Assembly: GCA_003225455.1 (NCBI GenBank)
Contig: QIAB01000074.1
Coordinates: forward strand, 24,846-61,269
Source of the DNA: Acidobacteriota bacterium
GTDB lineage: Bacteria > Acidobacteriota > Terriglobia > Terriglobales > Acidobacteriaceae
Reading direction: 5' to 3'
DNA length: 36,424 nucleotides
Every line of letters starts with the position of its first letter. Position 1 is the first letter of the stretch. Positions 692-36,160 of this stretch are shown in pieces. The notes beneath the pieces were generated by a model. The model made no database searches and was not told the DNA's origin. It saw only the letters and a list, made by a program, of their open reading frames with translations. A program made the translations under genes and the position numbers.

Positions 692-1204
692 ATGACGGTC
701 GCGGAGAAAATCCGTTACTTACGCGAGGTGGAAGGCTCGCTGCGCGGCATGGGCCGGTCCTTGACCCAGCTTGAGTTGGTGCGTGGCATCCGCAAGGAGC
801 TCGGCAAAACCATCAGCCAGTCGTATATTTCGCAGATCGAAAGCGGCGCTCGCCCGCACATGACGCAATCGACGCGCATGCTCCTCGCCAGATTTTTTAA
901 AGTGCACCCCGGATTTTTGGTCGACGACCCTGAGGGCTATCACACCGAGCTGACTTCGGATTTGCGCACCACAGAAGGGAAGTTGGACGTGTGGCTGTTG
1001 CAAGCGTCCGAGCGGTTTGCGGGCGACACAGAAGTGAGTGCGGTGCTGATCAAGGCCGCGCGCCAGAAAGATACGCGGCGATGTTTCCTGCTGCTGGGCG
1101 CGATCCTCGATGCACCAGGGCTCGCGGATCGATTGCTCGAGGCGCTCAAGCCTGACGCGGCAGCGTCGGCGAGAGCGCGTGCGGAGCATGGGAGGCCGGT
1201 ATGA
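692..1204 (+). CDS. XRE-family helix-turn-helix transcriptional regulator
   Basis: A 170-residue protein. The N-terminal 70 residues form a lambda-repressor-like helix-turn-helix (TVAEKIRYLREVEG, then a recognition region around SYISQIESGARP). The C-terminal 100 residues are helical and not assignable to a known sensor domain. The gene overlaps nfeD by four bases (ATGA at 1201-1204), so the two are probably translationally coupled. This links the regulator to the NfeD/flotillin membrane module. Its own promoter carries an inverted repeat at the -10 box, suggesting self-repression. ATG 692 lies only about 10 bases past the likely transcription start. Confidence 0.8.
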   Translation: MTVAEKIRYLREVEGSLRGMGRSLTQLELVRGIRKELGKTISQSYISQIESGARPHMTQSTRMLLARFFKVHPGFLVDDPEGYHTELTSDLRTTEGKLDVWLLQASERFAGDTEVSAVLIKAARQKDTRRCFLLLGAILDAPGLADRLLEALKPDAAASARARAEHGRPV

Positions 1205-1866
1205 CATGGGCGGATTTCTATCTCCTCTGTTTTGCCGTGGGATTTGTTTTTAGCCTGCTCTCGTTCTTGATGGGCAGTTTCCATCTGCCGCATCTTCCGC
1301 ATGGCGCCGGCGGAGGCCACAGTGGGCACGGCGGCGGAGTTGCGCATCACGGGGGCGCCGGAAAAGCCGGTATTAAGGGTGGTCATGCCTCACCTTTCAA
1401 TCTGTTCACACTGGCCGCGTTCCTCGCATGGTTTGGCGGCACCGGATATCTGCTTACTCGCTATTTCACAATCTGGTTTGTATTTGGCCTCGGCATTGCG
1501 TCGCTCAGCGGATTAACGGGAGGAGCAATCATTTATCTCTTTCTCTCTCGCGTGCTCATGTCAGAGGGAGAAGAAATGGATCCTGCCGACTACGAGATGA
1601 CAGGAGTCCTCGGAAGAATCTCAATTCCGATTCGCGAGGGAGGTACGGGAGAAATTATCTACTCGCAAGCTGGTACGCGTCGCACCTGCGGCGCTCGGGC
1701 TGAAGATGGCGGCGTCATCGCCAAGGGAACTGAGGTGGTAGTGACGCGCTACGACAAAGGAATTGCGTACGTTCGTCTGTGGACCGAGGTGGCTGGCGAC
1801 GACGGGAGTGGTGCTCCCATCGGCGACCAAACGGCATCCAGGCCGGCTGAAAAGGCGGGTGCGTGA
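1201..1866 (+). CDS. NfeD-family membrane protein
   Basis: A 221-residue protein preceded by GGAGG at 1191-1195. A first membrane segment covers residues 4-25. A Gly/His-rich loop follows (about residues 30-60, with many GH and HH pairs), then two further membrane segments (about 65-115). The C-terminal domain (about 130-200, from GVLGRISIPIREGG to IAYVRLWTEV) matches the small OB-fold of NfeD proteins, which partner with flotillin/SPFH proteins in membrane organisation. The next gene is flotillin, as in many bacteria. The His-rich loop is unusual and might bind metal; that part is speculation. Confidence 0.8.
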   Translation: MTWADFYLLCFAVGFVFSLLSFLMGSFHLPHLPHGAGGGHSGHGGGVAHHGGAGKAGIKGGHASPFNLFTLAAFLAWFGGTGYLLTRYFTIWFVFGLGIASLSGLTGGAIIYLFLSRVLMSEGEEMDPADYEMTGVLGRISIPIREGGTGEIIYSQAGTRRTCGARAEDGGVIAKGTEVVVTRYDKGIAYVRLWTEVAGDDGSGAPIGDQTASRPAEKAGA

Positions 1867-1938
1867 TGGATCGCAAATTGTGGCACCGGGCATCATTCTT
1901 ATGTGGTTACTGATTTCCGGGTTGTGATAGGAGGCGAT

Positions 1939-3399
1939 ATGTTCGGCATACCAATTGAATATTTGATCATCGCGGGACTTGCTGTTCTCGCGGTTTTGCT
2001 CCTGATGAGCGTGCTGGCGCGGCTTTACCGAAAAGCAGGCCCTCACGAAGCTCTCGTGGTGTACGGGTTCCGAGGCAAGCGCGTGATCACCGGCCACGGA
2101 ACGATTGTGTTCCCAATGGTCGAAAACTGCCACGATTTGTCTTTGGAGCTAATGTCATTCGACGTTGCCCCGCAGCAGGACCTCTATACGAAGCAAGGTG
2201 TGGCGGTCACGGTCGAAGCAGTCGCGCAGATCAAAGTGAAGTCCGACACCGAATCCGTCTGGACGGCTGCGGAGCAGTTCCTGACCAAGTCTGACCAGGA
2301 GCGAGAGGGACTCATCAAGCTGGTGATGGAGGGGCACCTGCGCGGCATTATCGGCCAGCTCACAGTCGAAGAGATCGTCAAACAGCCGGAGATGGTGGGC
2401 GATCGCATGCGGTCCACGTGTGCCGACGACATGAACAAGATGGGGCTTGAAGTCATCTCGTTCACTATCAAAGAAGTACGGGACAAGAACGAATACATCA
2501 TCAACATGGGCCGGCCGGATGTCGCCCGCATCAAGCGCGACGCCGATGTAGCTGCCGCCGAAGCTGATCGTGATACCGCGATCAAGCGTGCGCTAGCACA
2601 GCGGGAGTCCGCAGTCGCGAAAGCGCAGGCCGATCAAGATCGTGTGCTCGCGGAGACGCTCTCTTTAGCCAAACAGGCTGAGGCGCAACGGGATCTTGAA
2701 GTGAAGCGGGCGCAGTTTCTGGAAGTCACTAAACGTCAGCAGGCGCAAGCCGATAAAGCTTATGACATCCAGACCAACATCATGCAGCAGCAGGTGGTCG
2801 CCGAGCAGGTGAAAGTGCAGCAGGTCGAGAAGGAGCAGCAGGTCAAGGTACAGGAAGCAGAGATTGCGCGGCGCGAGAAAGAGCTGATCGCGACTGTGCT
2901 GAAGCAGGCGGAGATCGAGCGCCAACGGATCGAGACTCTGGCGGCAGCTGAGAAGCAGCGCCTGATGGCCGAAGCTGAAGGTCACGCCTCAGCGATCCGG
3001 CAACAAGGCGAGGCCGAAGCAGAAATCATTTTCAAGAAAGGCGAAGCCGAAGCCAAGGCAATGAACGTGAAAGCCGAGGCGTACCAGGAGTACAACCAGG
3101 CGGCAGTCATTGACAAGCTGTTCACCAACATGCCGGAGGTGGTTAAAGCTCTGGCGAGCCCGCTGGCCAACGTGGACAAGATCACCATCGTTTCTACCGG
3201 CAACGGCGATGCCTCCGGCATGAACAAGATCACTGGGGACATCACCAAGATGGCGGCGCAAGTGCCAGCCCTGTTCGAAACGCTCTCCGGGATGAGCATG
3301 GGCGAACTGTTTGCCAAAGTGCGGACCATTGGCGACAAAGGACCGAAACCACCGGATTCTTTGCCTCCGTCGAGCAAGGGCGCGGGAGCAGGGAAGTAG
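1939..3399 (+). CDS. Flotillin-family (SPFH/Band 7) protein
   Basis: ATG 1939 is chosen because AGGAGG lies at 1929-1934; an upstream in-frame start at 1903 has no such site. The 486-residue protein has one N-terminal membrane span (about residues 8-30), an SPFH domain (about 35-210) and a long coiled coil rich in Ala, Glu, Gln and Lys (about 210-390, with repeated AEAE and GEAEAK units). The C-terminal part (VIDKLFTNMPEVVKALASPL) is typical of flotillins. Flotillins scaffold ordered membrane regions. Pairing with NfeD upstream and PspA downstream suggests a membrane-integrity function. Confidence 0.88.
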   Translation: MFGIPIEYLIIAGLAVLAVLLLMSVLARLYRKAGPHEALVVYGFRGKRVITGHGTIVFPMVENCHDLSLELMSFDVAPQQDLYTKQGVAVTVEAVAQIKVKSDTESVWTAAEQFLTKSDQEREGLIKLVMEGHLRGIIGQLTVEEIVKQPEMVGDRMRSTCADDMNKMGLEVISFTIKEVRDKNEYIINMGRPDVARIKRDADVAAAEADRDTAIKRALAQRESAVAKAQADQDRVLAETLSLAKQAEAQRDLEVKRAQFLEVTKRQQAQADKAYDIQTNIMQQQVVAEQVKVQQVEKEQQVKVQEAEIARREKELIATVLKQAEIERQRIETLAAAEKQRLMAEAEGHASAIRQQGEAEAEIIFKKGEAEAKAMNVKAEAYQEYNQAAVIDKLFTNMPEVVKALASPLANVDKITIVSTGNGDASGMNKITGDITKMAAQVPALFETLSGMSMGELFAKVRTIGDKGPKPPDSLPPSSKGAGAGK

Positions 3400-3408
3400 G
3401 TATCCGTG

Positions 3409-3430
3409 GGGCGGGCGCCCTCGCCCGCCC
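3409..3430. repeat. GC-rich hairpin after flotillin
   Basis: GGGCGGGCG (3409-3417) and CGCCCGCCC (3422-3430) form a perfect 9-bp stem with a CCCT loop, ten bases after the flotillin stop. There is no T-run, so an intrinsic terminator is not supported. A similar unit, less perfect, precedes the ATGTAG repeat near 15470, so the two elements appear to travel together. Confidence 0.6.
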
Positions 3431-3437
3431 TGAAGCG

Positions 3438-3464
3438 ATGTAGGCGCGGGCGTCTCGCCCGTGC
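3438..3464 (+). repeat. ATGTAG palindromic intergenic repeat, copy 1
   Basis: Starts ATGTAGGCGCGGGCG and ends CGCCCGTGC; the two GC-rich arms pair around a short loop. It belongs to a family with further copies at 7759, 8800, 8829, 15498 and 33254. Confidence 0.7.
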
Positions 3465-3548
3465 AGCGGACAGATCTTTGCTATCTGTTATTCCAAGCGG
3501 ACTCCAGTCCGGGAGGAATGCAGTAAACCGCCGAGCTTCGCTCGGCCG

Positions 3549-3570
3549 GACAGCCGAGGGCGGCTGTCCC
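3549..3570. repeat. Palindrome upstream of pspA
   Basis: GGACAGCCG and CGGCTGTCC form a perfect 9-bp hairpin with a GAGGG-like loop between the flotillin and pspA genes. It may be a separate intergenic repeat type. Confidence 0.5.
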
Positions 3571-3609
3571 TACGTGTTCATTGTTAGGAGATACGAAAGG
3601 AGTCACCCC

Positions 3610-4269
3610 ATGGCATTACTTGAGCGAGTATCAACATTAGTCCGAGCCAATCTTAATGACCTGATCGACCGCGCTGAGCATCCTGAAAAGATGATCAAGC
3701 AGGTCATCCTCGACATGCAGAACCAGCTATTGCAGGTGAAGACACAGGTGGCAATTGCCATCGCCGATCAACATCTGCTCGAAAAAAAGCAGAAGGAAGA
3801 CGAAGACAAAGTTGCGGAATGGATGCGCAAAGCGGAGCTGGCCGTGGACAAAAAACAAGACGATCTGGCGCGCGCCGCCCTGGAGCGCGTGGAAAGCTAC
3901 CGCGACCTGAGCGAGGGCTTCGCCCAGCAAGTGAAAGATCAAAAAGCTCAGGTGGAAAATCTGAAAACCGCGTTGCGGCAACTCGAGCAGAAGCTTACCG
4001 AAGCACAGGCCAAAGCCGATCTGCTGATTACGCAGCATCGCCGGGCCCGCGCTGTGGGCAAAGCGGCGGACGCCCATTTGACGCACGGCAACGGCGGCCA
4101 CGCTGCCGCCTTCGATCGGATGAAACGCAAGGTGGCCCACGCGGAAGCGCATAGCCAGGCGAAATCGCAAATCGCCGCAGAAGATATCGAGCATCGCTTG
4201 TCCGCTCTGGAAAAAGAAGATCGCATCGAGCAGGCGCTGAGCGAATTGAAGGCGAAGAGGGGTGCGTAA
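3610..4269 (+). CDS. pspA: PspA/IM30-family membrane-stress protein
   Basis: ATG 3610 is preceded by AAAGGAG (3596-3602), which decides the start over the longer open frame beginning at 3406 that runs through repeats. The 219-residue protein begins MALLERVSTLVRANLNDLID, the amphipathic N-terminal helix typical of PspA/IM30/Vipp1. The remainder is a long helical coiled coil (about 25-215), and the length fits the family. These ESCRT-III-like proteins coat damaged membranes and preserve the proton gradient. Placement after NfeD and flotillin supports a combined envelope-stress module. About 200 bases of repeats separate it from flotillin, so it may have its own promoter. Confidence 0.88.
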   Translation: MALLERVSTLVRANLNDLIDRAEHPEKMIKQVILDMQNQLLQVKTQVAIAIADQHLLEKKQKEDEDKVAEWMRKAELAVDKKQDDLARAALERVESYRDLSEGFAQQVKDQKAQVENLKTALRQLEQKLTEAQAKADLLITQHRRARAVGKAADAHLTHGNGGHAAAFDRMKRKVAHAEAHSQAKSQIAAEDIEHRLSALEKEDRIEQALSELKAKRGA

Positions 4270-4277
4270 AGGCGAAA

Positions 4278-4370
4278 GTGACCGAAAGAGCGAATAAGGC
4301 GCGGTTAATCGGAATGCTCGTCGGCATTGCTGTACTCATTGTGGCCCTGCTGTTGAAGGGCCTCAGATAA
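4278..4370 (+). CDS. Small single-span membrane protein (30 residues)
   Basis: A GTG at 4278, eight bases after the pspA stop, opens a 30-codon frame ending TAA at 4368-4370. The product starts with a charged segment (TERANKARL), continues with one hydrophobic helix (IGMLVGIAVLIVALLL) and ends KGLR. A weak AAAGGCG motif precedes it. Charged N-terminus, one span and a short basic tail is the layout of small membrane peptides such as PspB/YneM-type partners, though no sequence homology is claimed. Its position makes it a possible membrane partner of PspA. It could be a chance frame. Confidence 0.45.
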   Translation: MTERANKARLIGMLVGIAVLIVALLLKGLR

Positions 4371-4467
4371 AGGGCCCACGTAGAGCGAAACGTACGGCAT
4401 TGCTGGATAGGCCTATGGAAGAAGTATTCCAACTGGATCGCCCTTGAAACCTTGGTTCTGTTCGAGA

Positions 4468-5352
4468 TTACCGGTGGCATGACTCGCTCAGGCCCGGCTC
4501 ACAACGAAGGTGGAAGACGTATCGCCCGATTACGTATCCCAATGCGGAGCCGACCAGAATATCGGACGTGAAGTGGTCCCGGCCAAGCAAGCGTCCCGTG
4601 GAAACCGCGCCTGCTGCCCCATACGCGAGGATCTTCACCCAAGGCCGCGGATATTCCCGCGCTACCACACTGGCCATCGCCCACATGAACATGGCATGGC
4701 CGCCGGGGAATGAAGTGTTGAAAGCATGGTGCTTCAGGAAATCGCCATTGCCGGTTCCTTCGCCGGGGCGCTGCCGGCCCGCGATGAGTTGCATGGGAGC
4801 ATATATCAGGAACGTGTTGGCGAGCGTTTCGAGTTCCAGTTGCCCGGTCTCTTTGGCGCGTGCGTTGCCAGTTTTTATGCCGTAGGCCCAAATTCCGACA
4901 AGGGCGCCGCTCATGCTGCCGAGGCTCACATTGGAAATATTGCCGTACAAATTCACATTGCCACCGGGAAGCGCCTCCTGAGTTCGCTTATCGGTTGCCA
5001 GCAAGGCTGCCGTGCCCGCCAAGAAGAGCGCGTCCCACTTGAGGTTCGAAACTTTAAACGGAGCGGCATACAGCTTCTTCTGGTCCTGCAAGCCTCGCTT
5101 TATGCTTCGCATGATCAGCCCATTCGGCTTACGCTCGGCTGGGTTTTGCGCGTCAGTGGAACCACCGGGATTCTGGTTCTCGGCATCCGTCCGAAAAGCG
5201 CTCAATCCAGCCTGACCCTCTAGAAACACAGAGCTGGTGGTTCCTGCGGGAAGCAGCGTTGGAGCTGAGGAGACGGTTTGGCAGGGTGCGCTAATGCAAA
5301 CGGCAACAGCAAAGCACTCAGCGAACATGATGTTGCGAAAAATGTTTTGCAA
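4468..5352 (-). CDS. PAP2-superfamily phosphatase, exported or membrane-bound
   Basis: A 294-residue protein with an N-terminal signal-like segment (FAECFAVAVCISAPCQ). The three phosphatase motifs are present in order in the C-terminal half: GRQRP (motif 1, although the expected leading Lys is a Gln), FPGGHA (motif 2, Gly where Ser is common before Gly-His) and GRLLGRDHFTSD (motif 3, R-x5-H-x3-D). The family dephosphorylates lipid phosphates such as undecaprenyl pyrophosphate or phosphatidic acid at the outer face of the inner membrane. Substrate cannot be told from sequence. The gene stands alone, facing the pspA operon. Confidence 0.8.
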   Translation of the reverse strand: MQNIFRNIMFAECFAVAVCISAPCQTVSSAPTLLPAGTTSSVFLEGQAGLSAFRTDAENQNPGGSTDAQNPAERKPNGLIMRSIKRGLQDQKKLYAAPFKVSNLKWDALFLAGTAALLATDKRTQEALPGGNVNLYGNISNVSLGSMSGALVGIWAYGIKTGNARAKETGQLELETLANTFLIYAPMQLIAGRQRPGEGTGNGDFLKHHAFNTSFPGGHAMFMWAMASVVAREYPRPWVKILAYGAAGAVSTGRLLGRDHFTSDILVGSALGYVIGRYVFHLRCEPGLSESCHR

Positions 5353-6799: not shown

Positions 6800-6814
6800 C
6801 GTAAGGTGCTCGGC

Positions 6815-7753
6815 ATGATTCTAGAAGCTAGGCTTGTGGAAACAAAGCGGAATTGTTGCTTTGTTCGGTGCTGCCTCTGGAAGGCGCTCTGGAAGCGCGT
6901 TTTCGAGGATAGCGTCGCTGCAAAACTTATGCCCTTCGTCCTGCTAGCTTCTCTGGCTGTTCTCTTTTTGCCCTGGCCGCCGTCCGTTTTCGCCGCTGCG
7001 CCTGTGTCATCTCCCTTGACCTACGATTCCGCGGCCGAACAGAAACTTCTTGATCTGGCCAATCAGGCGCGAGTTCAAGCGGGATTGGCGCCGCTGCATC
7101 CAGACGATGGATTGACCGAAGCGGCACGGGAGCACGCCGCTGCAATTGCTGAACGGCAGCAGCTTTCACACCAGCTTCCCGGGGAAGCTCCTCTGGCGCA
7201 GCGTCTGGCTACCAGCACCAATCTGCATCTGGAGCGTGGCGGGGAGAATGTCGCAACCGCCGCTACCGTGGATCAGATCTATGCCAGTCTGATGCGCTCG
7301 GCGCCGCATCGGGAAAATCTCTTGAACCCTTCATTCAATGTGGCTGGCTTTGGCGTCGTGCGAAATGGTTACTTGCTCTTTGTTACGCAGGATTTCGGAG
7401 AGGGAAGAGAGACGTATTCAGCGCAGACTTCCGAGGACCTGGTTGCAGCCAGCGTGACGCAGAAGCGTCAGCAGCAGAGACGTTCAAGTTTGCTACGACT
7501 GAACAGCAGCGCCGCACAAGCAGCAGCTTGCTCGATGGCACGAGCAAACTCACTCATCACGCCGATGTCACGGGACATGGCGCAGAGTCGCTATCTTCTC
7601 CGCTACACGAGTAACCAGCCGCAGAATTTGCCGTCAAGTGCGCCTCGAGCCATAGGCGATCGCAACATCAGCGCATTCGCGGTTGGAAGCTGCTATGCGA
7701 AGACCACGAGCTACCCCAACGGCGTCTATTGGGTGGCGCTAATGTTCTATTAA
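6815..7753 (+). CDS. CAP/SCP-domain secreted protein
   Basis: The CAP domain spans roughly LLDLANQARVQAGL to LLFVTQDFG and keeps the usual polar residues: His in AREHAAA, Glu in GGENVA and His in APHRENLL. The C-terminal 120 residues are Ser/Gln-rich and unassigned. The start is uncertain. ATG 6815 has TAAGG eight bases upstream. ATG 6929 would put a hydrophobic export segment (PFVLLASLAVLFL) at the very N-terminus and leave room for a promoter away from rmuC. Either way the protein is probably exported or membrane-anchored. The molecular function of bacterial CAP proteins is mostly unknown. Confidence 0.75.
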   Translation: MILEARLVETKRNCCFVRCCLWKALWKRVFEDSVAAKLMPFVLLASLAVLFLPWPPSVFAAAPVSSPLTYDSAAEQKLLDLANQARVQAGLAPLHPDDGLTEAAREHAAAIAERQQLSHQLPGEAPLAQRLATSTNLHLERGGENVATAATVDQIYASLMRSAPHRENLLNPSFNVAGFGVVRNGYLLFVTQDFGEGRETYSAQTSEDLVAASVTQKRQQQRRSSLLRLNSSAAQAAACSMARANSLITPMSRDMAQSRYLLRYTSNQPQNLPSSAPRAIGDRNISAFAVGSCYAKTTSYPNGVYWVALMFY

Positions 7754-7758
7754 GATCG

Positions 7759-7784
7759 ATGTAGGCGCGCGTCCTCGTGCGTGC
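7759..7784 (+). repeat. ATGTAG palindromic intergenic repeat, copy 2
   Basis: A 26-base, slightly shortened copy (ATGTAGGCGCG...GTGCGTGC) six bases after the CAP-domain gene stop. Confidence 0.6.
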
Positions 7785-7852: not shown

Positions 7853-8797
7853 ATGGAATCCTCTCCACAAATCCGAGTCGGCACGGCTGGCTGGTCATAC
7901 AAAGACTGGGAGGGCATTTTCTATCCTGCCGGGATGCAGCATCGCAAACAGCATCCACTTGATCTGTTGGCGCAATGCTTCGACGTCGTGGAGATTAATA
8001 CTTCTTTTTACGGACATATCAAGCCGCACATCGCCAAACTTTGGGTACACCGCGCCACAGCGGTGAATCCGAAATTCATGTTCACCGCCAAGCTGCATCG
8101 CTCGTTCACGCACAATCCGCTAGCGGTCATGGAGCCTACGTCTGCCGCGAGCATTCGGCCGAATGACGAGGATGAGCGACTTGCTCGAGAAGGGCTGGAG
8201 GCATTAGCCGGCGAAGGGAAACTCGGCGCTCTGCTTATCCAGTTTCCGGTTTCGTTCAAGAACACTTCGTTGAACCGCGAGTACGTAGAGCAATTGGCGC
8301 GGCAGTTCATCGAATACCCCCGGGTTGTAGAGGTGCGGCACGATAGCTGGAATAATCCCGAGACCATCGATTACTTCACGCAACGAAACGTTGCCTTCTG
8401 CAACATCGATCAGCCACTCATCGGTCGCTCGATGGGAGCGACTGAGCACGTGACTTCGCCGCTCGGCTATGTGCGGCTACACGGACGCAATTACGATCAA
8501 TGGTTCGAGGCGGAAAAGCCTCATGATCGCTACAACTATCTGTACAGCGAGGCGGAGTTGAGCGGCTGGAAGGAGAAGATCGAACACATCGCGCACAAAG
8601 CTGAGGTCACGTACGTTGTCGCCAACAACCATTTCGAGGCGAAAAGCGGCGTAAATGCGCTGCAAATCAAATACATGCTCACGGGAACCCGCGTGCAGGC
8701 CCCGGAGCCGCTCCTGACGCACTATCCGGACCTGAAGAAGATTGCGGATCCAATGTTCGAATCAACGTCAAGCTCTGATCTGCCGCTGCTTGCGTGA
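7853..8797 (+). CDS. DUF72 family protein
   Basis: A 314-residue protein starting MESSPQIRVGTAGWSYKDW. The GTAGWSYKDWxGxFYP signature and later blocks (VEINTSFYG, VEVRHDSWN, YVVANNHFEAKSGVNALQ) identify the DUF72 (YecE-like) family, predicted to fold as a TIM barrel. Its biochemical function is not established. The length is somewhat over the usual 240-300. It lies tail-to-tail with ispG, with two repeat units in between. Confidence 0.88.
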   Translation: MESSPQIRVGTAGWSYKDWEGIFYPAGMQHRKQHPLDLLAQCFDVVEINTSFYGHIKPHIAKLWVHRATAVNPKFMFTAKLHRSFTHNPLAVMEPTSAASIRPNDEDERLAREGLEALAGEGKLGALLIQFPVSFKNTSLNREYVEQLARQFIEYPRVVEVRHDSWNNPETIDYFTQRNVAFCNIDQPLIGRSMGATEHVTSPLGYVRLHGRNYDQWFEAEKPHDRYNYLYSEAELSGWKEKIEHIAHKAEVTYVVANNHFEAKSGVNALQIKYMLTGTRVQAPEPLLTHYPDLKKIADPMFESTSSSDLPLLA

Positions 8798-8799
8798 AT

Positions 8800-8827
8800 G
8801 CACGAGCGAGGACGCTCGCGCCTACAT
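8800..8827 (-). repeat. ATGTAG palindromic repeat, copy 3 (supplies the ispG stop)
   Basis: A full 28-base copy on the - strand. Its first six bases, ATGTAG (8827-8822), are read in frame as the final Met and stop codon of ispG. Confidence 0.75.
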
Positions 8828-10069
8828 CGCACGGGCGGGGACGCCTGCATCTACATCGGCGTAGTGAGACTCGACATAGTTTTCCAGAATCCTGATGAAC
8901 TCCGCCACAATTCGATCGCCCCTGAGAGTTGTGAACAGACGGCCATCAACATAGACGGGAGCTTTGGGTTCTTCAAATGTTCCCGGCAGCGAAATTCCCA
9001 AATTGGCATGTTTCGATTCGCCCGGGCCATTTACGACGCATCCCATCACGGCAACCTTCATCTCTTCTACGCCGCTATATCGGCTCTTCCAAACCGGCAT
9101 CTGCTCGCGCAGATAAGACTGAATCTGCTGGGCCATTTCCTGGAAGAAGGTGCTGGTGGTGCGTCCGCAACCTGGGCAAGCGGTGACCTGCGGGGTGAAG
9201 CTGCGGATGCCGAGCGATTGCAGAATTTGCTGCGCAACGCGAACCTCTTCGGTGCGGTCGCCGCCCGGAGCTGGCGTCAGCGAAACGCGAATCGTATCGC
9301 CGATTCCTTCCTGCAGCAGCACGCCCAGGGCCGCGCTGGAGGCCACGATTCCTTTTGCGCCCATGCCTGCTTCAGTCAATCCGAGATGCAGTGGGTAAGA
9401 ACAGCGTGCCGCGAGCGAGCGGTAAACATCAATCAAGTCCTGCACGCCGCTGACCTTGGCGCTCAAAATGATCTGATCAGGCCGCAAGCCGTATTTCTCG
9501 GCCAGTGCTGCTGAATTCAATGCGCTGACGACCATCGCTTCCATCGTGACTTCGCGGGCATCTTTCGGATCCGGCAACTTCGAGTTCTCATCCATCATGC
9601 GAGTCAGCAGAGCCTGATCCAGCGATCCCCAATTCACCCCAATCCGCACGGGCTTTTGATTCTCGACCGCAACTTCAACCATCGTGCGAAAATTGGAGTC
9701 GTCCTTTCTTCCAACGCTTACATTGCCAGGATTAATACGATATTTAGCGAGCGCCCGCGCGCACTCGGGATATTTCTTGAGCAGAATGTGTCCGTTGTAA
9801 TGGAAGTCGCCAATGATGGGCACGCGCATACCATGTTGTTCGAGTTCGTCGACGATAGGCGCCACGGCTGCTGCGGCTTCTTCGTTATTCACGGTGACGC
9901 GCACCAACTCAGATCCTGCCCGCGCCAGAGCGGCCACCTGCTCCACGGTCGAGGCGACATCGGCAGTGTCAGTGTTCGTCATCGATTGCACCACAACCGG
10001 TGCATCGGACCCGACTCGTACTCCTCCGATCGAAGCTGTAACGGTCTTTCTGCGATGAATATTAGCCAT
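8822..10069 (-). CDS. ispG: 4-hydroxy-3-methylbut-2-en-1-yl diphosphate synthase (flavodoxin)
   Basis: A 415-residue protein catalysing the penultimate step of the MEP isoprenoid pathway: 2-C-methylerythritol 2,4-cyclodiphosphate to HMBPP. The N-terminal TIM barrel opens with [19 protein letters not shown]. The C-terminal iron-sulfur domain carries the [4Fe-4S] ligands in ACPGCGRT and [10 protein letters not shown] (three Cys plus Glu). It is the compact bacterial form without the insert seen in plants. The last 11 residues or so ([11 protein letters not shown]) are encoded by two intergenic repeat units. The upstream isoprenoid cluster (uppS-cdsA-dxr-rseP) points the same way, but vapBC is lodged between. 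Confidence 0.95.
8829..8856 (-). repeat. ATGTAG palindromic repeat, copy 4 (inside the ispG 3' end)
   Basis: A more divergent copy next to copy 3, on the same strand. It is translated in a different phase as part of the ispG C-terminus ([10 protein letters not shown]). Confidence 0.6.
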
Positions 10070-12425: not shown

Positions 12426-13578
12426 TTAACTGGCCGAAGCCGGCCCAACCGCAGCGGACCCGGCCAACTGAACCACTTTTTCGCGGGCACGCCGGCGCGC
12501 TGTGGAATCCGCTTCCAGCACCTTCTTAATAGATTCCAATTTCCCGCTCTCCGTTTCACTGAGAACGGCTTCGATTATGTGGGGGATATCGTCAAAACCG
12601 ATCGAGTTGTCCAGAAACGCTGCCACTGCCACTTCATCGGCCGCATTGAGTGCGACCGTTTTAGCGCCCCCGGCCTCGGCGGCTTCATAGGCCAGGCGCA
12701 AACAAGAGAATTTTTCCATGTCCGGAGGCAGGAATTCGAGATGCCGTAAGTTCATGACCGGGAAGTGCATATCGGAGGCAATCCGCTCCGGATAGGTGAG
12801 CGCATACAGAATCGGCAGGCGCATATCGGTCACGGAAAATTGAGCAAGTATGCTGCCATCCACAAATTCCACCATGGAATGAATCGTAGACTGTGGATGA
12901 ACCATGACCTGAATTTTGCCCGGTGGCAAGTTAAACAAACGGCACGCCTCAATGACTTCGAACCCTTTGTTCATCAGGGTGGCCGAGTCGATCGTGATCC
13001 GCTGCCCCATCTTCCACGTGGGATGCCTTAGTGCCTGGGTGACGGTAATTGAGCCGAACTGAGACTTCGGTGTGTTGAGGAACGGACCTCCCGAGGCGGT
13101 CAGCCAGATGCGCTCGACTTCTTCGATTCTGCCGCCGCGCAGGCACTGGTGAACTGCATTGTGTTCACTGTCGATCGGGAGCAGTTGCTTGCCTTGGCGG
13201 CGCGCTTCGGCGGTGATCAACTCTCCGGCCGCGACCAGGCATTCCTTATTGGCAAGGGCCAGCGACTCCTACAATCGCGCTGACCACAAAATCTGCTTCG
13301 GGATGGGTGGCCACGCGAACTGCGCCGGAAGGACCTTGCGCGACCTCAACTTCTGTCAGCCCTGCGGCTTTGAGTTCTCGACGAAGTTTTTCCGCATCTG
13401 CTTCGGAACTGACTGAGATTACCCGCGGCTTCCATCGTTTCGCTTGATCCAGAGCGGCTTCAATATTTTTGCCGACAGCAAGGGAAACCATCTCGAAGCG
13501 GTCAGGATACGATTCGACCACGCTCAAAGTGCTGCGGCCGATCGAGCCAGTCGATCCTAAAATTGCGATTCGCTTCAT
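12426..13578 (-). pseudogene. dxr: 1-deoxy-D-xylulose 5-phosphate reductoisomerase, disrupted by an out-of-frame deletion
   Basis: The N-terminal part (110 codons, MKRIAILGSTGSIGRSTL to VVSAIVGVAG) runs into a stop at 13246-13248. The remainder (from ALANKECLVAAGEL at about 13259 down to 12426) continues in another frame. It keeps the substrate and catalytic regions, such as LLPIDSEHNA, TASGGPFLNTP, TIDSATLMNKG and VHPQSTIHSM. In intact Dxr about 14 residues, usually of the type LLPTLAAIRAGKT, lie between AIVGxAG and LANKE. Here they are missing, so about 40-45 bases are lost and the frame is shifted. The missing helix is part of the NADPH-binding domain. Neither half should work alone. Dxr performs the first committed MEP step, so a true loss would need a second enzyme; an assembly error is the main alternative. 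Confidence 0.85.
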
Positions 13579-14608: not shown

Positions 14609-15409
14609 TTAACTTCGAGCCGTCTTCGCCGCGCTTTCTGCCAGCCCCCCATACCGCCGCTCGCGCTTCTGGTAATCCGAGATTGCTTCCAGTAGATGCG
14701 CACCGCGAAACTCGGGCCATAGCGTCGGCGTAACATGAATCTCCGCGTACGCAAGTTGCCACAGCAGAAAATTGCTCAGCCGCATCTCACCGCTGGTGCG
14801 AATCACCAGATCAGGATCAGGCAAATGCCGCGTATACAAATGACGGGAGACCGAATCTTCATCAATGCTCAGATGATCCAGCCCGCCATTGCGCGCGGCG
14901 GCATCGACCATCGCGCGAAACGCATCAACTAACTCCGTACGCGCGCTGTAATTCAATGCCAGCGTCAGAACCATGCCAGTGTTGCGCGCTGTGGCCTCGC
15001 GCGCCCATTGCATTTTTTCCTGCACTGCCGGCGGCAGCTCATGCTGGCGGCCGATGTACTCCAAGCGAATATTGTTCTTATTCAGGGTCGGCAGTTCCTG
15101 CTTCAGATACCGGCACAACAGCCCCATGAGGAAATCCACTTCGCTTTTGGGACGCTTCTTCCAGTTCTCTTCTGAGAACGCGTACAAGGTAAGCGCGGGG
15201 ATGCCGATGCGCGCCGCGGTCTCTACGGTCGAACGCACGGACGCGACTCCGGCGCGATGGCCAGCCACGCGTGGCAAATGCCGCCGGCGCGCCCATCGTC
15301 CATTGCCGTCCATAATGATTGCGATGTGCTTTGGGAGCCGCGCCGGATCAAGACGCCCGTAAGCTTCCGCTTCTTTGCGATCCAGCCCGGCAGGAATCGT
15401 CGCCTGCAA
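14609..15409 (-). CDS. uppS: Undecaprenyl diphosphate synthase (cis-prenyltransferase)
   Basis: A TTG at 15409 is chosen as start: GGAAGGG lies five bases upstream and the resulting 266 residues fit the family. The longer open frame up to 15679 runs through an intergenic repeat. Motifs: IAIIMDGNGRWARRR (catalytic Asp and phosphate-binding region), AFSEENWKKR, and VIRTSGEMRLSNFLLWQ with EIHVTPTLWPEF. The enzyme builds the C55 lipid carrier for peptidoglycan from farnesyl diphosphate and isopentenyl diphosphate. As the first gene of the - strand cluster it links isoprenoid supply to envelope building. Confidence 0.92.
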   Translation of the reverse strand: MQATIPAGLDRKEAEAYGRLDPARLPKHIAIIMDGNGRWARRRHLPRVAGHRAGVASVRSTVETAARIGIPALTLYAFSEENWKKRPKSEVDFLMGLLCRYLKQELPTLNKNNIRLEYIGRQHELPPAVQEKMQWAREATARNTGMVLTLALNYSARTELVDAFRAMVDAAARNGGLDHLSIDEDSVSRHLYTRHLPDPDLVIRTSGEMRLSNFLLWQLAYAEIHVTPTLWPEFRGAHLLEAISDYQKRERRYGGLAESAAKTARS

Positions 15410-15497
15410 GTAGCCCTTCCGTTTGTTGAAGCTAACACACAGAGCAGGGGAGCGCAATGACACCGGTGGGGAGGGTGCCCTCGCCCCCGAATTGTCG

Positions 15498-15525
15498 ATG
15501 TAGGCGCGAGCGTCCTCGCTCGTGC
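15498..15525 (+). repeat. ATGTAG palindromic intergenic repeat, copy 5
   Basis: A full 28-base copy, identical over its length to the copy at 33254. As at copy 1, a GC-rich palindrome (about 15468-15488) lies just ahead of it. Confidence 0.75.
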
Positions 15526-15645
15526 GGGCTGAAGTCTTTCGCAATAGCCCGAATAGTTGAATCCCTTGACCAACTTGGCTATAGTTCCCGGAACCTAGTG
15601 TCGTGTCCCAAGTCTTCGCGCCATAGGTTAGAAACGATTTGAAAG

Positions 15646-15665
15646 GGCGCGCCTTCAGGCGCGCC
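15646..15665. repeat. GGCGCGCC paired palindrome
   Basis: GGCGCGCC occurs at 15646-15653 and 15658-15665 with TTCA between. Each is self-complementary, and together they form a hairpin. It is another kind of short intergenic repeat. Confidence 0.5.
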
Positions 15666-15800
15666 GTAAGTTCCGCCAACAGGAATGACGGCTTTCGCCG
15701 CTGAGGTGAACTCGCGGCAGGTCACAATTGGCCTTGGAATTTATACCGCGAAATTGCGCGACGCCACACTAGGCTGACGCCAAAGCTGCGAGGAAACTCA

Positions 15801-32206: not shown

Positions 32207-33259
32207 TTGCCAACGCAACAAATACCCGACACGCTCCCACGCGCGCAGACTTCGGCCCGTCCTGATACGCGCGCCGATGTTATCGTGATTGGCGCTGGCC
32301 CGACCGGTCTCGCCTGCGCAATCGAAGCGCAACGCGCGGGATTCAAAACAATCGCGATTGATAAGGGCTGTGTCGTCAATTCTATTTATAACTATCCGGC
32401 GAATATGTCGTTCTTCACAACGCCGGAGTTGCTGGAGATTGGCGACATCCCCTTCAGCACTTCACGCCAGAAACCAACCCGCGAGGAAGCGCTTGAGTAT
32501 TACCGTAAAGTTGCCGAGCACTATAACCTCGACATTCGGCAGTATCAGTGGGTGAAGACGGTGATGGGACGTGACGGCGAGTTCAACATTACGGCGACGG
32601 ATCGTCTTGGCCGTATTTACGACTACCAGGCGCGCAAGCTGATCGTCTCGACTGGTTATTACGATATGGCCAATGAGATGGGCATTCCTGGCGAGGACTT
32701 GCCCAAGGTATTTCATTATTACCGCGAACCGCATCCGTACTTTGATACCGACGTTTTGGTGATTGGCGGAAAGAACTCCGCCGCGATTTCAGCCCTCGAT
32801 TTGTGGAGGCACGGCGCGCGGGTCACGCTGGTTTACCGTGGTCCGAGAATGCACAGCCATGTAAAGTACTGGATTCTTCCTGACATTGAAAACCGCATCA
32901 AGAATGGAGAAATCGTCGCGTATTTCAACAGTTCGGCACGCGAGATTGAGCCTGATTACGCGCTTGTCGAAACCCCCGATGGTGCGCTGCGCCTGAAAAA
33001 TGATTTCGTTTTCGCCATGACTGGCTACCATCCCGATTATGATTTTTTGCGTTCGATGGGAATTGAACTGTCAGCCGATCAATGCCGGCCAGTGTGCGAC
33101 CCCGAGACCTTGGAAAGCAATGTGCCCGGAATATACGTCGCGGGAGTGATCGTCGCCGGCTCGCGCACCAACGAAATTTTCATTGAGAACGGACGCTTCC
33201 ACGGCCGGCAGATCGCAGCACACCTGCGGCAACAGTTGGGATCGAGCGCAACAATGTAG
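32207..33259 (+). CDS. ypdA: YpdA-family bacillithiol-disulfide reductase (FAD/NAD(P)-binding)
   Basis: TTG 32207 with AAGGATCAGG upstream; 350 residues. Two Rossmann motifs, VIVIGAGPTGLACAIEA (FAD) and VLVIGGKNSAAISALDLW (NADPH), bracket the YpdA-specific blocks NYPANMSFFTTPELLEIG and YYREPHPYFDTDVLVIGG. GIYVAGVIVAGSRTNEIFIE lies near the end. YpdA reduces oxidised bacillithiol in Firmicutes, and bacillithiol genes also occur in Acidobacteria. The gene ends ATG TAG, supplied by the first six bases of an intergenic repeat. Confidence 0.9.
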   Translation: MPTQQIPDTLPRAQTSARPDTRADVIVIGAGPTGLACAIEAQRAGFKTIAIDKGCVVNSIYNYPANMSFFTTPELLEIGDIPFSTSRQKPTREEALEYYRKVAEHYNLDIRQYQWVKTVMGRDGEFNITATDRLGRIYDYQARKLIVSTGYYDMANEMGIPGEDLPKVFHYYREPHPYFDTDVLVIGGKNSAAISALDLWRHGARVTLVYRGPRMHSHVKYWILPDIENRIKNGEIVAYFNSSAREIEPDYALVETPDGALRLKNDFVFAMTGYHPDYDFLRSMGIELSADQCRPVCDPETLESNVPGIYVAGVIVAGSRTNEIFIENGRFHGRQIAAHLRQQLGSSATM

Positions 33260-33281
33260 GCGCGAGCGTCCTCGCTCGTGC
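33254..33281 (+). repeat. ATGTAG palindromic repeat, copy 6 (supplies the ypdA stop)
   Basis: A full 28-base copy, matching the copy at 15498. Its ATG TAG is in frame with ypdA and ends it. The next bases abut the truncated end of the PPOX remnant on the other strand. Confidence 0.75.
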
Positions 33282-33483: not shown

Positions 33484-35342
33484 TCATTTCAGCAAATACT
33501 CTCTCACGAACATCACCGTGGCGTAAAACTGATAGTCCTGATTTTTCTTCTTACGGAAGCCGTGTCCCTCATCCTTAGCTTCGAGCCACCATACCGGCGT
33601 GCCGTTCTGGCGAACGATTGAGACCATCTGGTCGGATTCGCTGGCGGGCACGCGCGGATCATTCTTGCCGGCGATTACGAACAGCGGCTTGGTGATGTTC
33701 TTGGCTTTGTTGAAGGGCGCGATTTGCTCAAGAAACGCGCGCACCTTGGGATCACGCTCATCGCCGTATTCAACTCTGCGTAAATCCTGGCGATATCCCG
33801 ATGTGTGCTCGAGAAATGTAACCAGGTTTGATGGTCCGACGACATCCACTGAGCAGCAGATACGGTTGTTGTAATTGGTCGCGACGGCGAGGGTCATGAA
33901 GCCTCCGTAACTGCCGCCGGTTACCAGCACGCGACTTGCGTCCAGATCAGGCTGGGTTTGAATCCAGTCGAACAAAGAATCGATGTCTTTATATGAGCCT
34001 TCGCGAAGAAGGCCATTGTCAAGGGTGAGGAAAGTTTTGCCATAACCTGACGATCCGCGCACGTTGGGAAGGATCAGCGCGATTCCGAGTTCGTTCAAGT
34101 AGTAATTATTGCGCCCCAAGAATCCGGGACGATATTGGGCCTCCGGCCCGCCGTGGATATTAATAAATGACTGGCCGTTTGCCGCTGAACTTCGCCGGAG
34201 GCCGGTACAGGAAGCCGCTGATCTCGCGGCCATCCCAGGTTTTCCAGTGAATCAGTTGCGGCTCGGAGAAATTCGCAGTGTTCAAGCCGCCGGTTTCGCT
34301 GTAGGTCCAGCGATCAACTTTACCGGTTTGCGCATCGAGCGAATAGACGTCTGAAGTGGAGCGAGCGGAAGTGATATTGAATCCCAAGTCGCGATCGTTT
34401 TTGTGCCAGCGAACGCCGGAAACAATTCGCTTCGGCAGATCGGGTACAGCTTTTTCTTTCCCGGTTTTCGTGTCGAGCAGGTGGAGCACGCCGAAACCAT
34501 CTTCGTTAGTGACAAACGCGATGGTGCTGCCGTCATGCGAAAGATCGAACTCATCGACATCCCAGGAAAGGTGGCTGCTCAGGTAAGTATGCTGCTTGCT
34601 GGCGAGATCGATGTAGGCCAGCCGCTGAAACTCAGAATCTTTATTGGTCGTAACGTAGATGCCCTTGCCATCTTTGCTGAACTGGCCGACGCCGTAAGAA
34701 ATCTTCGCATCCGTTTTCGGAGTGATTAGGGTCTTCTCTCCAGTGCCGGCATCTGCGATCCAGAGATAGCTTTCGTTGGCGGAGACTTCCTCTCTTAAGA
34801 GAATTTTGCGATTATCTGGAGACCAATCGAGCGGCTCCCAGCCTCCGCCCTGAAGTTGCTCCAGCATGTGATCGGACTTCGGATTCGCTGGCTCAACGGT
34901 GTAAACATCAACGTCGTTTCCATTCCGGCGGGTTGATCCGTAGGCCAGCTTTCGCCCGTCGTACGACCAGACCGGCGCGACATTGCGCGATTTGCCATCG
35001 GTAAGCAGCGTTACCTCGCCGCTTTCATTGTCGAACCGATAGAGCTGAAAGAATTCACCTCCGCCGATGTCTTTCGAAAACACGAAAGCGTTTCCGGAAG
35101 CAGGCGAGTAAAGCGCGCCACTGATTGAATCGGGATAAAACGTCAGCTGTGTGCGTGCTCCGCCCGGCATCTTCACCAGATGGACTTGGGAGGTTTCGGC
35201 GAAGCGTGTGGAGATCAGCATCTCCCGCTTGACCGGATCCCAACTGTCCAGACTGGCCCCGCGAAAATTCGTATAGCGATCCACGGTCTCGGCGAGGGAA
35301 GCGGGGATCTTAGGAATGCCTTCGACTACCAGATTTTCATTA
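33484..35342 (-). pseudogene. S9 prolyl-oligopeptidase-family peptidase, frameshifted and with an IS at its 5' end
   Basis: The N-terminal part (from about 35342 to 34160) encodes the beta-propeller, beginning NENLVVEGIPKIPASLAETV. It ends PVIY and stop. One base out of phase, the C-terminal part continues INIHGGPEAQY with the alpha/beta-hydrolase domain. Catalytic Ser is in GGSYGGFMT, Asp in GKNDPRVP and His in DEGHGF. Reading ATTATT instead of ATTTATT (around 34160-34168) restores one frame, so a single extra T is the lesion. An IS5-type element interrupts the gene's 5' side at 35343, and no start codon or signal peptide is recovered beyond the IS. Family members release or trim peptides, often exported. 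Confidence 0.85.
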
Positions 35343-35351
35343 GAGGGTGTT

Positions 35352-36160
35352 TCAAAAATACCTCCGAAGCGTGATCCAGAAGCAAGCAAGATAGAAGAAC
35401 GCGTAGTAGATGGAGAGTAGATGTTCATGACGGACCAGCAATCTGCGAAACTGCCCGAGCCAGGCGTTGGTTCGTTCTACGATCCAGCGGCGCTTGTAGC
35501 GGCGGAGTTTGCGTCCATCTTCATACCGTCGTTTCTTGTTGTTCTTGCGATACGGGGCAATCAGTTCGATGCCCCGCTTTCTGAGCCGCCGACGCAACGG
35601 ATCGGAATCGTACCCGGCATCGGCGATTATGCGCTCCGGTTTCTGTCGCGGGCGGCCGCGCGACTGCGGGACCGAGACTTCGGCCAGCGTGGTTTCCGCA
35701 AGCGTAATTTCTGCCGGAGAGGCACTTTCCAGCTGAACTCCCAGCGGAATGCCTTCACCGTCTGCCAGTACCATCCACTTCGTTCCCTTGCCGCGCTTGG
35801 TTTTCCCGACCGCAAGGCCCCCTTTTTGGCGGGTGCGAAACTGCCGTCTAAGAAACTCTCATCCCAGCGCAGCAGGCCGTTTTCATCCAGCGCCCCCAAC
35901 AGGGTGCGCCAGGCTTCCAGCCAAATCCCTTGCTCTTGCCAGCGTTGCAGCCGCCGCCAGCAGGTCGAGGGCGAGGGAAACTCGTCCGGAAGAAATCGCC
36001 ACGCCGCTCCCGTCTGCAGAATCCAGAGAATGCCCTCCAGACAGGCGCGGTTGGCTGCCGGTGGCCGACCGCGTTTATCGGCTCGCCGCTTCGGCCGGGG
36101 AAACAAGGGCGCAATTAACTCCCACTGTTCATCGGTCAACAGCCTCTGCCGCTTCTTCAT
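35352..36160 (-). CDS. IS5-family transposase, two frames joined by -1 frameshift
   Basis: OrfA (36160 to 35627) starts MKKRQRLLTDEQWELIAPLF and contains the first catalytic Asp (DESFLDGSFAP). OrfB (overlapping, ending at 35352) supplies the second Asp (IIADAGYDSDPLRRRLRKRG) and the Glu (RWIVERTNAWLGQFRRLL). At 35818-35827 the coding strand reads AAAAAGGGGG. Slipping back one base there changes the orfA tail into GGLAVGKTKRGKGTKW and runs into orfB as one protein, as in IS427-type elements. Without the slip, orfA alone would be a 177-residue inactive product. Confidence 0.88.
35818..35827 (-). promoter_or_regulatory. Programmed -1 frameshift site of the transposase
   Basis: Five A then five G on the coding strand (A AAA AGG GGG), at the point where the orfA product stops matching the family and orfB takes over. 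This is inferred from reading-frame comparison. Confidence 0.6.

Follow-up and report, generated by a model that had tools for sequence, protein, structure and literature searches.

Why should conserved bacterial genes end inside a repeated sequence? In a 36,424-nt stretch of an Acidobacteriaceae genome (contig QIAB01000074.1; the whole stretch is referred to here as the window), both ispG and ypdA take their last codon and their stop codon from a short palindromic repeat. The locus thus raises the questions of what the repeat is, what moves it, and whether its place at gene ends reflects targeted insertion or selection. Our analysis points strongly to a GTAG-type REP, a nonautonomous element of about 30 nt that is in all likelihood mobilized by a RAYT transposase and whose sites are filtered by selection.

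The repeat, a unit of 28–30 nt that reads (CG)ATGTAGGCGCGRGCGTCCTCGCYCGTGC, is found six times in the window, as the initial annotation had claimed. The positions that it gave hold as the left ends of all six copies, but the units at 8800 and 8829 are on the minus strand, and their ATGTAG is at 8827-8822 and 8856-8851, respectively, instead of at the positions named. Perfect consensus copies (49.0 bits each) are located at 8800..8827 on the minus strand and at 15498..15525 and 33254..33281 on the plus strand. The others are a one-base-shorter variant with a TCTC loop (3438..3464, plus; 45.1 bits), which follows the stop codon of a gene at 1903-3399 at a distance of 38 nt, a unit with a shorter stem (7759..7784, plus; 37.0 bits), 5 nt past the TAA that ends a CAP-domain gene (6806-7753), and a second unit next to the 8800 copy (8829..8856, minus; 37.2 bits). 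The ispG gene, encoding a flavodoxin-dependent HMB-PP synthase (8822..10069, minus; NF001540, matching residues 3-401 of 415), reads through this second unit, which lies in an open phase and encodes ten residues, and then reaches its final Met and stop in the 8800 unit (ATG TAG at 8827-8822, with the TAG at 8822-8824). The far end of the 8800 unit is 2 nt from the TGA of the convergent DUF72 gene (7853..8797, plus; PF01904), which has its own stop before the REP pair. The ypdA gene, encoding a YpdA family putative bacillithiol disulfide reductase (32285..33259, plus; TIGR04018, residues 1-316 of 324), finishes as ...GSSATM-TAG on the 33254 unit, the TAG being 33257-33259; its start at 32285 is the choice of the gene caller within a frame open from 32207. 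Coordinates and translations thus bear out the proposal that both proteins end in a Met-stop drawn from the first six bases of the repeat, and the REP-coded residues of IspG and YpdA fall outside the modeled domains (NCBIfam models). The accompanying proposal, that ispG had gained a short tail encoded by the adjacent copy, was right as to the source of the tail but not as to a simple gain: relatives also have tails, native ones of comparable length (in the sister genome, SHYAAKEELAAKV), and REP-coded residues stand in their place here. The closest named relatives of this ispG belong to the Terriglobia (Acidobacteriota).

The setting of the remaining perfect copy is less clear-cut. The 15498 unit is antisense to the N-terminal part of an open frame at 14609-15679 (minus), which is uppS-like by eye; the true start of this frame probably lies downstream, and the copy is perhaps intergenic. 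At 12426-13578 (minus), N-terminal and C-terminal parts of a dxr-like gene (DXP reductoisomerase) occupy separate open frames by eye, adjoining rseP-, cdsA- and uppS-like genes; this split would be a frameshift or an assembly error. A transposase-like gene at 35352-36160 (minus) is also divided between two frames by eye, as is the peptidase-like gene beside it (33484-35428, minus). Degenerate GC-rich hairpins that lack GTAG (window positions 3408-3430 and ~15469-15490) immediately precede the two REPs at 3438 and 15498; the first of these hairpins is a weak match to our covariance model (E 1.2). These hairpins are possibly the decayed partners of REP pairs.

The repeat is a canonical GTAG-type REP, composed of the GTAG tetranucleotide and a 9-bp hairpin. 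Across 18 aligned seed copies GTAG is invariant and sits directly 5′ of the hairpin (weaker copies vary), and the 9-bp stem, a single pair of which is G-U in its common form, closes on a TCCT loop. The stem is paired in 98.5% of cells over the 15 distinct seed sequences, and pairing drops to 23-68% when the stem partners are slid; six of the nine pairs change on both sides, compared with a shuffled mean of 2.3 and with none of 500 shuffles reaching six. The left border is sharp, information being near background one base beyond the CG. This CG precedes ATGTAG in 35 of the 44 family-A copies of this genome, whether or not a stop is nearby. In three relatives (G009, G014, and G061) CA is the commonest dinucleotide at that position (25 of 72 copies), a difference that perhaps reflects a changed cleavage preference of the RAYT.

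Twenty copies with at most three mismatches to the 28-mer are present in the 5.0 Mb of this genome and none of the reversed pattern; this control and the covariation rule out a chance origin. The covariance model returned at least 149 matches at E ≤ 10 and at least 89 at E ≤ 0.01 from the assembly, which consists of 195 contigs; these counts come from the 150 of 4801 first-look candidates that were scored and so underestimate weak copies. A unit of 28–30 nt with at least the latter number of copies agrees with the size (20–40 nt) and abundance of GTAG-type REPs, and the view of the repeat as REP-like is upheld by its GTAG, its imperfect palindrome, and its dozens of copies. A known structured RNA was considered and set aside, there being no Rfam match within the window at the curated gathering score. 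Two further sub-families, ACGTAGGCCC... and ACGTAGGGGC... (at loci L066, L073, L065, L071, L055, and L082), consist for the most part of units in which the first hairpin is followed by another, and include some head-to-head pairs.

The frame content of the unit bears directly on what it can do to a gene. The consensus with CG is 30 nt long (several copies are one base shorter) and holds a stop in one of its six frames, the other five being open. Because of this, internal copies need not break a gene, and a gene that terminates inside the unit must end at its TAG. The phase shared by ispG and ypdA is therefore less striking than it appears.

The initial annotation had suggested a transposase encoded elsewhere as one model for the spread of the repeat, and such a gene is present. 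This genome has 11 Y1_Tnp matches. At locus L009, a 153-aa open frame (1372-1833, minus; NF047646, 94.7 bits, cut-off 80) is, judged by its sequence, an intact RAYT flanked on both sides by REPs of the window's own family, at 1281-1308 (minus) and 1336-1362 (plus) on one side and at 1860-1886 (minus) on the other. The protein aligns with Escherichia coli TnpA_REP (PDB 4er8) at E 0.0028 over the HUH motif, the tyrosine, and the W-Q-x4-[DE]-H-x2-R block, and contains the motifs PDHVH, QYICENP, and WQHESFDHVLR. Related paralogs and fragments accompany it: a second RAYT at L007 (81.6 bits, against the same cut-off) carries WQEESFDRVLR, and L010 holds a transposase fragment with three more REP copies. 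The L007 gene lies among the two other REP sub-families, with L066 on the same contig stretch. Across 41 genomes of the family, 13 have matches to the REP model (E ≤ 0.001) and 30 have a relative of the L009 RAYT (E ≤ 1e-10). The two co-occur weakly, with REP matches in 12 of the 30 RAYT-positive and 1 of the 11 RAYT-negative genomes and with 18 RAYT-positive genomes lacking a match. The assembly of G014 contains no RAYT of the L009 kind at E ≤ 1e-10, despite its 21 REPs. The looseness of this link and the case of G014 both count against mobilization by a RAYT.

Where the copies lie relative to genes was assessed on 57 sources from this genome (the window and 56 stretches) and on 60 stretches of the three relatives; every stretch was chosen for holding REPs, and the null was drawn from the same stretches. 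Genes (395 and 358, respectively) were called with a home-made 3-periodic model, an earlier round of which made 90 calls on ten real sequences and a single call on their reversed versions; the caller misses some genes, including the CAP gene of the window. One overlapping match of 84 (L271 3589-3626, minus) was dropped before counting, and matches from this genome below 29 bits were excluded from the gene-end statistics. The 163 copies form 135 clusters. Although 76% of the DNA is coding, only 18 of these clusters count as intragenic, which here means deeper than 60 nt within a gene. Among the 117 other clusters, 39 are no more than 10 nt from the 3′ end of a gene, whereas 1000 random placements gave a mean of 13.5 and a maximum of 26; at this distance from 5′ ends there are 4, against a random mean of 13.6. 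The 3′ excess is found both in this genome (17 clusters against 5.2 expected) and in the relatives (22 against 8.9). The unbiased scatter that would have spoken against the first interpretation was thus not what the mapping to gene ends revealed. By neighborhood, 29 clusters are convergent, 68 tandem, 14 divergent, and 6 at edges, the available gaps being 99 convergent, 404 tandem, and 101 divergent; the excess at convergent gaps is modest.

The repeat is also oriented with respect to stop codons. Thirty-four sense copies have the stop of the gene between 10 nt before the unit and its TAG, as against nine antisense copies within 10 nt. The sense stops at the repeat fall at the TAG (ten), exactly at the first base (five), or flush (one); sense read-through within 60 nt involves two copies only, and antisense read-through two genes. 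Such a bias in strand could mean that the REP is a regulatory element, the hairpin protecting 3′ ends or stalling ribosomes in the mRNA and the TAG at its foot forming part of the function, a reading that we consider conceivable but unlikely. In its favor, too, are the G-U pair of the stem, a feature that published work interprets as an indication of transcription (PMC3733652), and a report, cited in PMC12306157, that E. coli REPs no more than 15 nt from a stop lower translation; for ribosome stalling at REPs beside stops, the citation inside that paper was the only printed source found. A regulatory role is, however, at odds with the poor conservation of the repeat, which also occurs within genes and antisense to them. 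Among the relatives' ispG ends listed, none but that of G014 lies in the repeat, the ypdA stop is free of it in all 29 relatives listed (sister genome G009 among them), and none of the listed meaB and permease orthologs has it at the stop. Relatives that lack the repeat differ from this genome in the last residues of IspG and YpdA; identical C-termini without a repeat, which would have undone the idea that the element supplied them, were not what the comparison yielded.

Ten copies in four genomes act as TAG donors. In this genome the recipients are ispG, ypdA, meaB, and the genes for 3-methyladenine DNA glycosylase (Mpg) and an amino-acid permease; in G014 they are ispG and an alcohol dehydrogenase gene, in G009 valS and a 95-aa frame that matches no Pfam family, and in G061 the gene for a TPR protein. 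The stops of seven of the ten donor genes were compared with those of orthologs. In six (ypdA, meaB, Mpg, valS, and both ispG genes) the REP-made stop and the nearest native ones are a few codons apart at most, the end column of meaB being the same as that of 4 of 11 orthologs and the end column of the G014 ispG the same as that of 4 of 12 relatives (this genome excluded). The permease departs from this pattern, in that its closest ortholog runs on for ~13 codons past the REP stop. Read-through tails are found in queG and lpxB (antisense in both; ...ARAGTPAPTSEG in the lpxB product) and in another permease gene, and internal copies in metH (also in G014), uvrA, and a molybdopterin oxidoreductase gene. 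Within uvrA and metH coding sequence the frame continues across the copies at L057 4001-4027 (gene 1533-4496, minus), L061 4001-4028 (gene 964-4530, plus), and L277 3589-3616.

The number of donors invites the alternative that the RAYT prefers targets, T-R-A-T contexts for instance, that overlap termination codons. Copies in the TAG register are over-represented (10 of 12 against an expected 1/3, binomial P 5e-4, in a small sample in which two ispG units belong to one gene); in five copies, all of them from relatives, the first base of the unit is also the last base of a stop codon (TA|A, TG|A, TA|G); and the end columns that meaB and the G014 ispG have in common with their orthologs are likewise what such targeting would produce. 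Against it, the CG flank is present regardless of a nearby stop, CT or CA dinucleotides are the cleavage sites of characterized TnpA_REP enzymes (PMC8266576), 18 of the 135 clusters are intragenic, and 78 of the 117 others are more than 10 nt from any 3′ end. The initial annotation had left the choice between targeting to 3′ ends and selection for harmless sites open. The data favor the second; stop-codon targeting is possible but not needed to explain them, and we judge it improbable. Also doubtful is a stronger version, in which the RAYT/REP pair would place copies in register with stops and so set the terminating ribosome against the hairpin. If this were true, the REP would be less a neutral passenger than a transposable stop-plus-brake module acting where genes end.

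Relatives with and without the repeat bear on its mobility. The sister genome G009 (support 0.97, FastTree) has no REP between ispG and the convergent DUF72 gene, and G014, which falls outside the clade formed by this genome and G009, has one in that gap that supplies the ispG stop. Either the REP inserted twice in this gap or a single insertion was followed by a loss; both histories are possible, and the distribution is a complication for the explanation that we prefer. When 95 copies of this genome were tried against stretches of the relatives, seven could be aligned across; five of these are missing from the relative and two (metH; L090) are apparently common to it, and no clean insertion junction was seen among the seven. 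Unoccupied orthologous sites in relatives suggest mobility, no excision or insertion event having been observed. That the copies are instead old fixed hairpins or assembly artifacts, as might be supposed from the fragmented assembly, the degeneracy of some copies, and the two apparently held in common, is very improbable in view of the perfect 28-nt copies at unrelated loci, the absence of the repeat from orthologous sites in the sister genome, and the intact resident RAYT.

The explanation that we favor, a REP mobilized by a RAYT with its sites filtered by selection, can be set out as a series of proposed steps. The resident RAYT (TnpA_REP, an HUH-tyrosine transposase) would recognize the REP as single-stranded DNA, cut it, and transfer it; we infer that the L009 enzyme moves the REPs of the window and that selection shapes their sites. 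Insertions within coding sequence would mostly be lost, and copies at or just past the end of a gene would survive because only the last residues are altered. A REP whose GTAG side is turned towards the gene and read as ATG-TAG or ACG-TAG would become its stop codon; read in any of the five open frames of the consensus, it would provide a tail (lpxB, queG, the first ispG unit) or an internal segment (metH, uvrA). Stop donation would then follow from the TAG inside GTAG together with the survival of gene-end insertions. Support for this scheme comes from the anatomy and copy number of the repeat, the REP-flanked RAYT and its GTAG-contact residues, presence and absence in relatives, the 3′-end bias, and stop donation itself. 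To the complications already noted may be added the longer permease ortholog and the use of home-made gene calls.

These findings document, for a Terriglobia-type acidobacterium, GTAG REPs together with their cognate RAYT. They also provide a quantified case of mobile elements rewriting C-termini and stops, with the ten donor copies in four genomes affecting conserved genes such as ispG, valS, and meaB. Moreover, the availability of related genomes with and without the REP makes the question of insertion versus selection testable.

Stop donation is an instance of behavior already described, and the principle is in print: in the words of Di Nocera, De Gregorio and Rocco (2013), GTAG REPs "often provide" the ORFs beside them with a TAG stop (PMC3733652). 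The families discussed there resemble the present one in having GTAG at the foot of a 6–13 bp stem with a short loop, in being dispersed, and in lying between unidirectional or convergent genes, near 3′ ends, and sometimes within genes, uvrA being an example; repair genes such as uvrA are indeed named in print as REP carriers. The TCCT loop and the conserved CG/CA-AT before GTAG are different here. The section of that study on GTAG REPs names no acidobacterial family, and the study mentions Acidobacteria in connection with transposases flanked by terminal inverted repeats. Predicted REPs in Acidobacteriota are nonetheless already in print, because a table in PMC12306157 gives palindrome counts for three members of the phylum, including Granulicella aggregans. 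Searches of the open-licence literature returned no title or abstract opening devoted to the combination of GTAG REPs and their RAYT in Terriglobia.

The enzyme, too, has known counterparts. The E. coli, Stenotrophomonas, and Marinomonas enzymes act on the single-stranded GTAG hairpin and cut at CT or CA (PMC8266576), and by analogy this RAYT most likely acts on such a hairpin as well. Like E. coli TnpA_REP (4er8) and the TnpA_Y1 enzymes of subclasses 2.5 and 2.7 (PMC6006769), the L009 RAYT has the HUH motif and the tyrosine, is encoded by a gene lying between its own REPs, and shares the W94-Q95-x4-[E/D]100-H101-x2-R104 spacing (numbered from the alignment), in which W94, Q95, E100, H101, and R104 are conserved or GTAG-contact positions (PMC6006769). 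It differs from 4er8 in that the similarity is remote and the host belongs to the Acidobacteriota, and it has D at position 100, as do subclasses 2.5 and 2.7 in the same paper. Closer to home taxonomically, Solibacter usitatus has a class 3 TnpA_Y1 with ~600 copies of CnGA-footed hairpins (PMC6006769). Both systems thus tie acidobacterial REP-like hairpins to a Y1 transposase, and they differ in the foot of the hairpin, which is CnGA in Solibacter and GTAG here.
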